From positions 1-64,000 of the forward strand of contig JAGCXM010000018.1 in NCBI GenBank assembly GCA_017961325.1: a DNA stretch of 64,000 nucleotides, in the 5' to 3' direction. The translations under genes were made by a program, and so were the position numbers. Positions within the stretch are counted from its first letter, which is position 1; the number at the start of each line of letters is the position of its first letter. This DNA is from a bacterium (GTDB lineage Bacteria > UBP6 > UBA1177). The notes under the pieces are model-generated. The model did not search any database and had not been told where the DNA came from. It saw nothing but the letters and a program-made list of their open reading frames with translations. This document shows positions 50,431-55,420 of this stretch, piece by piece.

Positions 50431-51471
50431 TTATGCAGCATGTGTTTTGGTAATAGGTATAGGTTTTAGATACTTAAAATTTTGCATAAAAACTTTTAAA
50501 TCAGCTCCCACAAAGTCATAATTTTCTAAATTAATATCTTTCTTTTCATCTCGTGCATCATAAACAAGCAAATATCCAGTACGTAAACTTTTTTCAGAAG
50601 TATTAAGAAGTTCTTTTATATACTCTAAGGTTTGAGTTACACCTTCTTTTACTCTTTTAACTCCATATGGTGTACTAATTCCGGTTCCAGAATCATTAAT
50701 TGAAACACCAATCCATTTAATTTCAATAAAATACAGTTCTCCTCTAACATCAAAATATATATCATTCCTCTTCTTCGATTGCCCCAATTCAACTTCTACA
50801 TTAAAAGTATATTGCATATGCTCTGTTAAATACTGACACAATTGATCCCTCATATAATGCTCTGGTTTATTTTTTAGGATATTACGATTAATAAGAGATG
50901 AATCAATCTGACGTAGGGTTGCATTATCTGCTAAAATGCACATATAATTTACTTGTTGTGTTAAATACTGCTTTGCATATTCATCCAAAACAATCTCTAA
51001 CTGAGATATATCTCTTTTTTTTAGATATCGCATTCTGTCTTCATGACTATAAAAAAAATTGTTATCTTCTATCGCCTCCCCATCAATATAGAGAGTAACA
51101 CCTTCTTCTCCAAAGAAAAAAACAACATTGTCATATGATTCAGATTCTAATTGTTTTCGTACTCCAAAAGTATTTCCTAATAGGTATTTTTTCTCGAGAA
51201 TATCGCATGATGCATTAATTTTAATGAAATTATTCTCCCGGATTTCACTCTCAACAACTTTTAGCTTTTCTGTAAAAACTGAAAATTGTATTGAATCCAA
51301 AATCTCATTCGGAATAGCTATTGAGAATAAATTCCTTTTATTAAGCTGCTTTTCCCAAAATTCTTGAAAAACTCTTCTATGCAAAATATCAATTTTATCT
51401 TGGTTTTTTTTGTGTGTTTGTTTAACTTTTATAATTTTTTTTAGCAAATCATCAGAAAAAGAAAAATCCAT
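50431..51471 (-). CDS. PD-(D/E)xK nuclease-like effector of an ABC-three-component system
   Basis: 346 residues. A C-terminal nuclease core is visible: HYMRDQLCQYL (helix), then NDIYFD (Asp237) and ELYFIEIKW (Glu250-x-Lys252), the D...ExK pattern of restriction-fold nucleases, followed by a helix with QTLEYIKELL. The N-terminal ~180 residues are not recognised and include GEEGVTLYIDGEAI. Its start overlaps the middle-component stop by 1 bp (TAATG). Position downstream of an ABC ATPase and a middle component makes it the likely effector. Strongly AT-rich. Confidence 0.75.
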   Translation of the reverse strand: MDFSFSDDLLKKIIKVKQTHKKNQDKIDILHRRVFQEFWEKQLNKRNLFSIAIPNEILDSIQFSVFTEKLKVVESEIRENNFIKINASCDILEKKYLLGNTFGVRKQLESESYDNVVFFFGEEGVTLYIDGEAIEDNNFFYSHEDRMRYLKKRDISQLEIVLDEYAKQYLTQQVNYMCILADNATLRQIDSSLINRNILKNKPEHYMRDQLCQYLTEHMQYTFNVEVELGQSKKRNDIYFDVRGELYFIEIKWIGVSINDSGTGISTPYGVKRVKEGVTQTLEYIKELLNTSEKSLRTGYLLVYDARDEKKDINLENYDFVGADLKVFMQNFKYLKPIPITKTHAA

Positions 51472-52085
51472 TATTTTTCCCCCCTCAAGATTTTTCCAAA
51501 AATATATTCAAAATATAGTTTTAAGTAATCTTTGTTATCAAGAATATCGTCTTCTTTTGTCAGTTTACTTTCAAATGCATCTTTGAACTTATTTAAAAAT
51601 TTTACCGTATCATTGTCAGAGCCAATATTAAGGTTATAGACAGAATTGGATTCTAAAGAATTTTTATACTCTGGATCCCTGAAAATGAAATCAAAAATTT
51701 TATCTTCTCCATAAACACCAAGTATAAAAGAAATATCATCAAACCATGAATCCTTTAACTCATAATTTTCTGATGAAATAGTATGGTTGATATGAGATAG
51801 CCCATATCCTTCTTCAGAATGAATCAATAATTCATTTGCTTTTAAATTTGTAACAGCATTGTCAATATCGGCATCTTCAGGCCCACTCAAAGTTCGTGTA
51901 AAATTATAATCGTCCTTAAATATATTATCTTTTTCAGTATATCGGAAAGAATACAAAACTGCAGATAAATATAGAATACGGTTTATTGAAGATTCACGAA
52001 CATATTTCCAACCGATATTCTCTAGTTTTGTTAATAGGAGTAAAATATCTTCACTTTTTAGAATTATTTCATCATATCTAGCCAT
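51471..52085 (-). CDS. ABC-three-component system middle component
   Basis: 204 residues, helical: EDILLLLTKLENIGWKYVRESSINRILYLSAVLYSF, FTRTLSGPEDADIDNAVTNL and NELLIHSEEGYGLSH, resembling a winged-helix-like small domain. This is the middle-component pattern of ABC-3C systems, which link the ATPase sensor to its effector. It overlaps the ATPase gene by 8 bp upstream and the nuclease gene by 1 bp downstream. Family assignment is by context and overall form. Confidence 0.7.
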   Translation of the reverse strand: MARYDEIILKSEDILLLLTKLENIGWKYVRESSINRILYLSAVLYSFRYTEKDNIFKDDYNFTRTLSGPEDADIDNAVTNLKANELLIHSEEGYGLSHINHTISSENYELKDSWFDDISFILGVYGEDKIFDFIFRDPEYKNSLESNSVYNLNIGSDNDTVKFLNKFKDAFESKLTKEDDILDNKDYLKLYFEYIFGKILRGEK

Positions 52086-54057: not shown

Positions 54058-54061
54058 CTTT

Positions 54062-55420
54062 CTACTTTTTCTCCAAAACGATTACACCTTCAAGCAATTT
54101 ATCAACATGCTCTTTTTGCTGAGGGCTTGTTTTTAAATAACGGGCTTTTCTGATTTCCTGTACAGAAAAACCGATATCTTCTGCAATAGAAGCACAAATA
54201 TCAAGAGTTTTTATCTCCACATTAAAATATGCAGAGTTTGAAACATTAAAATAAACCTTCCCGCCTTTTCGCATTTTTTTGTACAACTCTTTAAAAAGAG
54301 TATCCATATCTACAAAATAAAGACGAATCATATCTATTATGGAAGGGTTCCATAAAGTGAAATTTTTCGCAGACTTATCCAATCTCTTTAAAGTAGATTT
54401 AAGAAGTGAATTTTTTATGTCAGCATTATCATGCCAATGAATCTGAACATGTGAACGAAAGGTGTGTTCTCTCAGATTTTGGATCTGAGCATTATCTTTA
54501 GTAAATCCCAAAGTTTTCAGCTCGAGCATATAAGTGTCTGTATAGTCACGTGAATTAAGATACGGAGGCGAAGTGATTACCAAGTCGATGGAATTGTCTT
54601 CGACTTTTTCATTTATGGCAAAACGAGAATCTGAATTGAAAAGAAAGCTTTTGTTTTTCTGAGAAAATTCTACATTCGGCTTGAATGAATTTTTTATATC
54701 TTCCAATAGCTCATCTGTTACTTTTTTATCAAATTTTGTAAAGACATCTTCCTTAGTCAGCTTTATTGAAGTCCAATTTTTTTTATATGAAAGGCATTTT
54801 CCGTTTCTATATAAGTTCGAGACATCAAGCAATATCGCAGCTAATGCTATCGTAAATAAATCTTTATAAATTTCCTCATTTATTGCATCGATTGCGATTT
54901 TAAGTTTTTTTACCGCCAGACCGACTTCATTGTCATAATTCCATTTTTTGCTTTTGTCTGACTGATATAAAGTCGGAAAAACAGAAGAATCCAAGTTGGT
55001 GTCATTTAATTTATTCCGGGTGTTTTTTATGCTTGCAAACCAATAATTTGCTCGTTCATAAGTATATTCGGTTTCAAGTTTCACTTTGCCAATCAAATAC
55101 ATGAGAGGATTTATTTCGAATGAGTAGCATTTTATTCCAAGATTCTGTAATTCAAGAGCGGTTGTTCCACTACCGGAAAATGGTTCCAGACAACATTCTA
55201 TTTTTTGTTCTTTATTTTCATCTATTATTGATTGAATAAATTCTTTTGAGTAACCTTCAACAAAAGGATACCATCGATGGATCGGTTCCTGTTTATTCTT
55301 ATTAAACTGCATGATACGCCCGTAAGTATCCGTAAAATCTGCATAGTTATATTTTAACGCATCATTTGACATACACTGGTCAAAACGGTTATAACCACAT
55401 GAATCTTGCATTTTGCACAT
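54062..55420 (-). CDS. DNA methyltransferase (N6-adenine or N4-cytosine type)
   Basis: 452 residues. SAM-binding motif I EPFSGSGTTALE (about 79-90) and catalytic motif IV TSPPYLNSRDYTD (about 283-295), with about 190 residues between them holding a target-recognition-like helical region. The SPPY tetrad marks an exocyclic amino-methyltransferase. The Cys-rich N-terminus (MCKMQDSCGYNRFDQC) may be a leader; the Met at residue 17 is a later possible start. It is first in a four-gene AT-rich operon with the ABC ATPase, middle component and nuclease, so it may protect host DNA from that nuclease. Confidence 0.87.
   Translation of the reverse strand: MCKMQDSCGYNRFDQCMSNDALKYNYADFTDTYGRIMQFNKNKQEPIHRWYPFVEGYSKEFIQSIIDENKEQKIECCLEPFSGSGTTALELQNLGIKCYSFEINPLMYLIGKVKLETEYTYERANYWFASIKNTRNKLNDTNLDSSVFPTLYQSDKSKKWNYDNEVGLAVKKLKIAIDAINEEIYKDLFTIALAAILLDVSNLYRNGKCLSYKKNWTSIKLTKEDVFTKFDKKVTDELLEDIKNSFKPNVEFSQKNKSFLFNSDSRFAINEKVEDNSIDLVITSPPYLNSRDYTDTYMLELKTLGFTKDNAQIQNLREHTFRSHVQIHWHDNADIKNSLLKSTLKRLDKSAKNFTLWNPSIIDMIRLYFVDMDTLFKELYKKMRKGGKVYFNVSNSAYFNVEIKTLDICASIAEDIGFSVQEIRKARYLKTSPQQKEHVDKLLEGVIVLEKK

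Follow-up and report, generated by a model that had tools for sequence, protein, structure and literature searches.

A DNA methyltransferase coupled to a Lamassu-like ATPase, a middle protein and a predicted PD-(D/E)xK nuclease: a candidate ATP-dependent restriction-modification system

Within a window of 64,000 nt from a bacterium of the GTDB lineage UBP6; UBA1177 (assembly GCA_017961325.1, contig JAGCXM010000018.1, positions 1 to 64,000) we studied four adjacent open reading frames (ORFs), all on the minus strand, which encode a DNA methyltransferase (MTase), an SMC/Rad50-like ATPase, a middle protein (MC) and a predicted PD-(D/E)xK nuclease (Table 1). The last three, here called the triad, recur with the MTase beside them in bacteria, in an archaeon and on viral contigs, with conserved catalytic residues and with ATPases that form a branch of their own. 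From these sequences we consider it rather probable that the four genes constitute one defence unit, which would work like an ATP-dependent restriction-modification system. An earlier note, made from the letters of the window, had read the genes as an ABC-three-component (ABC-3C) conflict system extended by a dedicated MTase; the four ORFs, their positions and their junctions (a 4-nt gap between MTase and ATPase, an 8-nt overlap of ATPase and middle protein, a 1-nt overlap of middle protein and nuclease) were all found as it described.

Recurrence of the four genes

With the ATPase alone as query, tblastn searches of plasmids retrieved only a plasmid of Burkholderia stagnalis, which carries the same four genes; the nuclease query retrieved none. 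This plasmid also contains a second, divergent ATPase-MC-nuclease triad, so that two different triads are arranged around a single MTase (L003, 767-10890). Phages searched with the ATPase gave no match, and viral contigs yielded no relatives when scanned with a single sequence of the ATPase or the nuclease. An alignment of three ATPases retrieved 8 loci from viral contigs and at least 20 from genome contigs, and a profile built from 27 ATPases added six further loci, centre genomes excluded (4 of 397 Pseudomonadota, 2 of 394 Bacteroidota). The ATPase surveys of 295 Actinomycetota and 197 Spirochaetota genomes, centres again excluded, returned none. All these frequencies are lower bounds, because only three to six candidates were scored per genome and the loci from genome contigs are those among the matches listed.

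The earlier note had proposed asking whether the four genes recur together, and they do: of the 34 loci to which the ATPase alone led, among the matches listed, 33 have the MTase adjoining the triad. This set excludes the window, as the starting point, and an Azospirillum locus found via the MTase (L004), and includes L032. The sole exception, L018, is a locus where the contig end falls inside the ATPase. All six loci obtained with the profile from the 791 genomes that had not been preselected possess the MTase. Since the gene set recurs at ATPase identities to the window of 16–67%, and in 33/34 of these loci, chance can be excluded; the four-gene unit is rare yet tightly coupled. The order ATPase-MC-nuclease is the same in all 34 intact triads. 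Residue counts, gaps and trees omit L032, L018 (cut) and L004 (ATPase broken, nuclease core absent); L025, whose ATPase is cut, does not enter the ATPase tree, the counts of MTase position or the distance test.

As the records are labelled, the unit is held by Spirochaetota, Pseudomonadota, Bacteroidota, WOR-3, Kiritimatiellota, Actinomycetota and Chloroflexota, many of them metagenome-assembled genomes (MAGs), and further by one Methanosarcinaceae archaeal MAG and by viral contigs. Phage genes, encoding terminase, portal, tail, helicase or integrase, were looked for at five of the 8 viral loci and are present at each of the five. At the viral locus L032 only the MTase end is visible, at the contig edge, and it is likely a copy of L034, with equal protein lengths and scores. 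Downstream of the unit, both contigs carry a tight trio of genes for proteins of 336, 213 and 373 aa (L034 12311-15077, L032 4714-7480), which have no match at E 0.01 to any of the four profiles of the family. One locus among those from genome contigs, L026 from Trinickia, lies outside the family and its counts: positions 4938-11042 hold genes of 807, 216 and 1018 aa, the last of which encodes a distant SMC-like ATPase (2e-14), with no MTase in view.

The methyltransferase and its linkage to the triad

The best MTase match of a genome sits at the triad in 19/19 triad genomes tested (of 21; those of L025, G039, and L018, G041, were omitted). The reverse test agrees: among 249 Pseudomonadota genomes the MTase profile scored below E 1e-130 in five (one of them the centre), exactly those with the triad, and the next-best match stood at 1.8e-57. 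The MTase that the earlier note called dedicated therefore proved to be a constant part of the system, and homologues of the triad without it, the case named there as a refutation, were searched for among these loci and not found. Its place as the first gene is a peculiarity of some members: among 32 systems the MTase lies downstream in 24 (12 on the opposite and 12 on the same strand) and upstream in only 8 (seven on the same strand, one divergent), and a quick ATPase tree requires at least 8 changes of its position or strand. The distance to a triad gene, counted from the first start codon, is at most 40 nt in 29 of 33 systems and at most 120 nt in 32 of them. That the MTase is still next door after repeated rearrangement suggests that selection maintains the adjacency, which is not easily explained by hitch-hiking.

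These data bear on an alternative that we regard as improbable, namely that two neighbours travel together, a complete ATPase-MC-nuclease defence and a selfish or anti-restriction MTase that frequents the same islands. The labile orientation of the MTase would suit such a pair, and so would the only partial agreement of its distances and tree with those of the triad. The association in 33/34 loci and in 19/19 tested genomes, the exact reverse match in 249 genomes and the adjacency retained through rearrangement all speak against it.

The MTase agrees only partly with its partners in distances and tree. Several MTases are out of step with the ATPase tree (e.g. L033, L013 and L023), as if, judging from the sequences, they had been replaced now and then and never lost. 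Compared with the closest relative of the window unit (L008, from a Spirochaetaceae MAG), synonymous divergence (dS) is about 2.1, near saturation, for the MTase; in the ATPase it is 0.26 over codons 1-60 and 0.7 or more over the remainder, in the middle protein 0.15-0.25 over codons 1-120 and 1.0 over codons 121-180, and in the nuclease 0.12. This unevenness indicates that the two systems came to share the nuclease and most of the middle protein only recently, whereas the MTase and most of the ATPase remained old and different. For this one pair of systems, it fits the MTase and the ATPase forming a variable pair that would bear the specificity.

The MTase carries a PFxGSGT motif, which we take to be the S-adenosylmethionine (AdoMet)-binding element, followed by an SPPY motif that is invariant in 33/33 proteins and suggests that the mark would be placed on N4 of cytosine or N6 of adenine. 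Six loci with a related MTase and no triad (L097-L102) were fetched and the neighbours scanned in two: L102 adjoins a Type II restriction enzyme (7.6e-120) and L101 a Type IIG/I-like protein. Other triad-free relatives adjoin annotated Type II enzymes on plasmids. At the Azospirillum locus an intact MTase stands beside an ATPase with a broken frame and a nuclease that lacks the ExK core motif. A decayed restriction side next to a retained MTase may reflect the order of events that restriction-modification would allow, in this one MTase-selected case, where the break is possibly a sequencing error.

The ATPase and the middle protein

The Rad50/SMC-like character of the ATPase, proposed from the letters of the window, is borne out by matches to Pfam AAA_23, PADLOC LmuB and PDB chains of SMC3, Smc and Rad50. 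Walker A, the signature SESQ and the D-loop are conserved, and the Walker B string CETPDSSLD that had been pointed out is present. At the position that follows the Walker B acid, 28 of the 34 ATPases carry Thr and 6 carry Ala; Glu never occurs there. The hook of Rad50 has a single CxxC. What the earlier note termed a zinc hook is indeed a cysteine element in the middle of the ATPase, but it consists of two CxxC pairs (C346/C349 and C365/C368). The PADLOC LmuB profile PDLC03859 matches 26/27 family ATPases. It also matches ORFs of 1,100-1,300 aa (probably SMC), and gave matches in 9/14 control genomes; because it scores such long SMC-like ORFs, a match to it is not diagnostic. In the ATPase tree a single branch with support 97 separates 33 triad ATPases from nine LmuB. 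By alignment, the family ATPases have Asn at the position where 6/9 control LmuB carry the switch His.

The middle protein of the window matches nothing in Pfam, PADLOC, NCBIfam or PHROGs, and a sequence search of the PDB with the profile of the middle proteins gave nothing convincing. Its AlphaFold2 model was compared with 844 aligned chains, among which the LmuC of three Lamassu complexes occupy ranks 2-4, with Z 7.1-7.3 and a root-mean-square deviation (rmsd) of 3.6-3.8 over 122-124 residues, although a Z under 8 may reflect a common arrangement. The models suggest a possible LmuC-like fold for this protein and a restriction-enzyme-like fold for the nuclease core described below; with Foldseek by itself, neither model had a match that reached E 0.001. 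Rank 1 is held by a chain of DarTG from M. tuberculosis (Z 9.7, rmsd 4.8, 141 residues), and on the level of models a link between parts of DarTG and LmuC-like adaptors is possible.

This resemblance raises a rival explanation, which we consider rather unlikely: the unit would be a Lamassu-like abortive infection system, in which DNA ends or replication structures would be recognized by the ATPase and the middle protein independently of sequence, the nuclease would then kill the cell, and the MTase would only shield host DNA from the freed nuclease or tune the trigger. The LmuB matches of 26/27 ATPases and the likeness of the middle-protein model to three LmuC chains agree with it. So does the absent catalytic Glu, a feature shared with LmuB: the control sequences have Q, T or N in 9/9 loci, and PMC10586767 gives E to Q at this position for LmuB in general. 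Against it stand the lack of diagnostic value of the LmuB profile, the absence of any match to an ABC-3C effector or MC model (see below), and the fact that only 1/9 LmuB control loci has a related MTase gene in view (a weak match, 4e-15, about 3 kb away), so that sensing of this kind does not require an MTase, which here is nearly invariable.

The nuclease

The residues E204, D237, E250, K252, Q280 and D305 are invariant in 34/34 intact triads and Y284 is found in 33/34, a count that leaves out the broken Azospirillum copy. This conservation confirms the D...ExK core recognized in the earlier note and supports the prediction of a restriction-type nuclease; the core together with the QxxxY motif is presumably that of the PD-(D/E)xK class. 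Pfam PDDEXK_9 matches 9/29 of the nucleases (best 8.2e-5). Matches of the window nuclease to the libraries are marginal only (PADLOC PDC-M45C 0.087, PHROG 17011 0.023), and that to NCBIfam TrpC (0.0034) reaches 16.7 bits against a cut-off of 258. A PDB sequence search with the nuclease profile found nothing. In structural comparison the core aligned mostly to restriction enzymes, with OkrAI, BamHI, BspD6I, McrC, SwaI and HincII among the matches, and to viral cap-snatching endonucleases. The restriction-type fold, whose absence the earlier note named as a refutation, is indicated for the core by these matches, although the model of the whole protein is poor and its Z values are low (see below).

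Comparison with known defence systems

The unit resembles Lamassu/ABC-3C/DdmABC (LmuA-LmuC-LmuB) in that an SMC/Rad50-like ATPase of about 650 aa without the usual catalytic Glu, a middle protein of about 200 aa with a model resembling LmuC, and a nuclease effector are encoded in one operon. It differs in having a DNA MTase as a nearly invariable fourth gene, in the order ATPase-MC-nuclease, the reverse of the effector-MC-ATPase order of Lamassu, in the location of the nuclease domain in the C-terminal half of its protein, and in the ATPases, which occupy their own branch (support 97), keep the SESQ signature and the D-loop intact and carry Asn at the switch His site of six of the nine control LmuB. 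In 9/9 control LmuB loci, the ATPase gene comes after same-strand genes whose size suits an MC or an effector. Furthermore, the family proteins match no Pfam MC or C-terminal docking domain (CTD) model. The earlier note had suggested comparing the 204-aa and 346-aa proteins with the ABC-3C families, and this comparison, which covered 29 middle proteins and 29 nucleases from the systems found before L056-L061, gave 0/29 for the MC models and 0/29 for the effector CTD models at E 0.1. By contrast, 10/10 proteins from six control loci match Pfam ABC-3C models: 6/6 middle proteins match MC2, MC3 or MC5, and 4/4 effectors match CTD7. The membership in ABC-3C proposed from the letters is, as stated there, not supported by the profile tests, the gene order or the tree; the unit seems to use Lamassu-like parts yet does not pass these tests for a Lamassu system.

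The likeness to Type II restriction-modification lies in the MTase subfamily (PADLOC PDLC03224), in the PD-(D/E)xK nuclease and in the triad-free MTase relatives, which stand beside AvaI/BsoBI-type or other Type II enzymes, whereas the restriction part here comprises three proteins with an SMC-like ATPase rather than one enzyme. Two traits expected of restriction-modification are found: the MTase is linked to the putative restriction genes (33/34 loci; 5/5 in 249 genomes), and a restriction-type nuclease is predicted by the core residues in 34/34. MADS comprises eight genes. Its mad3 profile matches 26/27 ATPases (best 1e-15) and mad2 matches the window MTase (1.9e-6), but the mad3 model, with 374 positions, is shorter than the family ATPases, and the middle protein and nuclease of the window match no mad model in PADLOC at E 0.1. 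Dnd and Pbe likewise possess SMC-like ATPases (DndD, PbeC; weak profile matches) in a modification-linked defence; they rest on backbone phosphorothioation, whereas the mark here would come from an AdoMet-dependent DNA MTase. The middle protein and the nuclease have no model of their own in PADLOC 2023, Pfam 2025 or NCBIfam 2026 as searched. No description of the four-gene system was found in the portion of the open-licence PubMed Central literature that was covered, and a claim of its novelty extends to that portion and to these family libraries only.

Proposed mode of action

Restriction-modification by this unit could proceed as follows. The MTase, of a type assigned from its sequence, would mark host DNA at its own target. 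A dimer of the ATPase together with the LmuC-like protein would be held on DNA as a nucleotide-gated clamp. Since the catalytic residue is Thr or Ala in 34/34 ATPases and the signature and D-loop are intact, the ATPase probably switches rather than cycles. On meeting incoming DNA without this mark, or DNA that is unmarked and in a trigger state like that of Lamassu, the clamp would release or activate the PD-(D/E)xK nuclease, which would cut. Tentatively, the family could represent a class of its own within ATP-dependent restriction-modification: an SMC/Rad50-like clamp and an LmuC-like adaptor would read methylation and free a PD-(D/E)xK nuclease, and a sensor of the Lamassu type, repurposed or ancestral, would have spread in this form among bacteria, archaea and phages.

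Several observations weigh against restriction-modification. No related MTase is found in 8/9 LmuB control loci, the ninth having the weak and distant match mentioned above, so this type of ATPase needs no MTase in general. Pairwise distances of the MTases are only loosely linked to those of the triad (r 0.47-0.57, compared with 0.84-0.92 within the triad; 32 systems). The MTases of the triads do not form one clade in the best tree, although a single clade is not rejected (approximately unbiased test, p-AU 0.257). A specificity shared between the arms of the ATPase and the MTase is not supported, because the correlation with the MTase is about the same for the arms (0.57) as for the heads (0.56). 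The genome of L018, the sole locus without a visible MTase, was outside the 19 tested. The whole-protein model of the nuclease is weak, with a predicted local distance difference test score (pLDDT) of 58.1, and fair only around residues 155-305, and its best structural Z, 6.3, is within the range where chance arrangements may occur.

How Lamassu-type SMC complexes distinguish self from invader is described as unsettled in PMC10586767, the main text of which contains no word beginning with "methyl". A Lamassu-like branch with a near-obligate DNA MTase provides a direct handle on this question, as its trigger could be switched by methylation. If restriction-modification is indeed the function of the unit, it would join two defence logics, restriction-modification and SMC-based sensing, add a widely spread system to the known defences and offer a route to new methylation specificities.

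Features and genomic neighbourhood of the unit

Table 1. Coordinates in the window of the four genes and their conserved motifs
Feature	Position	Strand	Evidence
DNA amino-methyltransferase, 452 aa; AdoMet motif PFSGSGT, then catalytic SPPY	54062..55420	-	Pfam N6_N4_Mtase 3e-9; PADLOC MTase_II PDLC03224 8.8e-68
MTase motif, presumably AdoMet-binding, residues 80-86	55163..55183	-	G83, G85, T86 in 33/33; P80, F81 in 32
MTase catalytic motif SPPY, residues 284-287	54560..54571	-	invariant, 33/33
SMC/Rad50-like ABC ATPase, 659 aa	52078..54057	-	Pfam AAA_23 6.7e-7; PADLOC LmuB 4.4e-17; PDB SMC3, Smc, Rad50 chains
ATPase Walker A, residues 39-47	53917..53943	-	K45 in 33/34, one gap
ATPase four-cysteine (two CxxC) putative zinc element, mid-protein, residues 346-368	52954..53022	-	each Cys in 33 or 34 of 34
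ATPase ABC signature SESQ, residues 546-549	52411..52422	-	34/34
ATPase Walker B and D-loop, residues 573-582	52312..52341	-	catalytic Glu position Thr 28, Ala 6 of 34
Middle protein, 204 aa; N-terminal part winged-helix-like, LmuC-resembling (model)	51471..52085	-	AlphaFold2 pLDDT 89.9; three LmuC chains Z 7.1-7.3
Predicted PD-(D/E)xK nuclease, 346 aa; catalytic domain in C-terminal half	50431..51471	-	invariant core residues; PDDEXK_9; restriction-enzyme fold rows
Nuclease core D237...E250-x-K252	50716..50763	-	residue conservation
Nuclease QxxxY, residues 280-284	50620..50634	-	Q 34/34, Y 33/34

The higher AT content of the unit relative to its neighbours, from which transfer had been suspected, is confirmed: the GC content is 0.327 in the MTase, 0.284 in the ATPase, 0.280 in the middle protein and 0.288 in the nuclease gene versus 0.40-0.42 in flanking genes, and that of third codon positions (GC3) is 0.19-0.30 versus 0.44-0.49. 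In a genome of the same genus (L114) a McrB-like gene and a Phd/ParE antitoxin gene lie about 960 nt apart, and the stretch that separates them contains no ORF of at least 80 aa; in the window the four-gene unit occupies the interval between the McrB-like gene and the Phd/ParE pair (50317-55855). The same interval holds a cytosine-MTase cluster in L112 and PDC-S41 in L113. Together with the base composition, the comparison of L112, L113 and L114 supports acquisition of the unit into a variable site. The idea that the host is a Fibrobacter was examined with Fib_succ_major, which gave 0 matches.

The McrB-like gene (REase_II profiles) and a gene for a 757-aa partner, at 46559-50317, form a separate pair of host-like GC; the partner has no convincing match in Pfam, PADLOC or NCBIfam, and same-genus relatives carry longer McrB-like ORFs. 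Both genes were considered as members of the unit and ruled out by their GC of 0.41-0.42, by a same-genus genome that carries both and none of the four, and by the lack of a relative of either at 35 other family loci (phmmer, E 1e-3). Their adjacency to the unit, and the alignment of the nuclease core to McrC at Z 5.6, could be taken to favour a Type IV-like, modification-dependent system: the triad would be directed at foreign methylation, and the MTase would serve a different purpose. We find this very improbable, given that the pair lies outside the unit, with its host-like GC, its separate existence in the same genus and its absence from the 35 other loci, and that a system attacking methylation would harm itself if it were coupled to an MTase of its own, except where the two marks are different. 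The only other phmmer match to the McrB-like protein is an AAA ATPase (1.9e-5) on a Cryobacterium plasmid without the triad (L007), where positions 5869-12178 encode two MTases, a 389-aa protein, this McrB-like-resembling ATPase and a 415-aa protein; the cluster may be a further MTase-containing defence of several genes.

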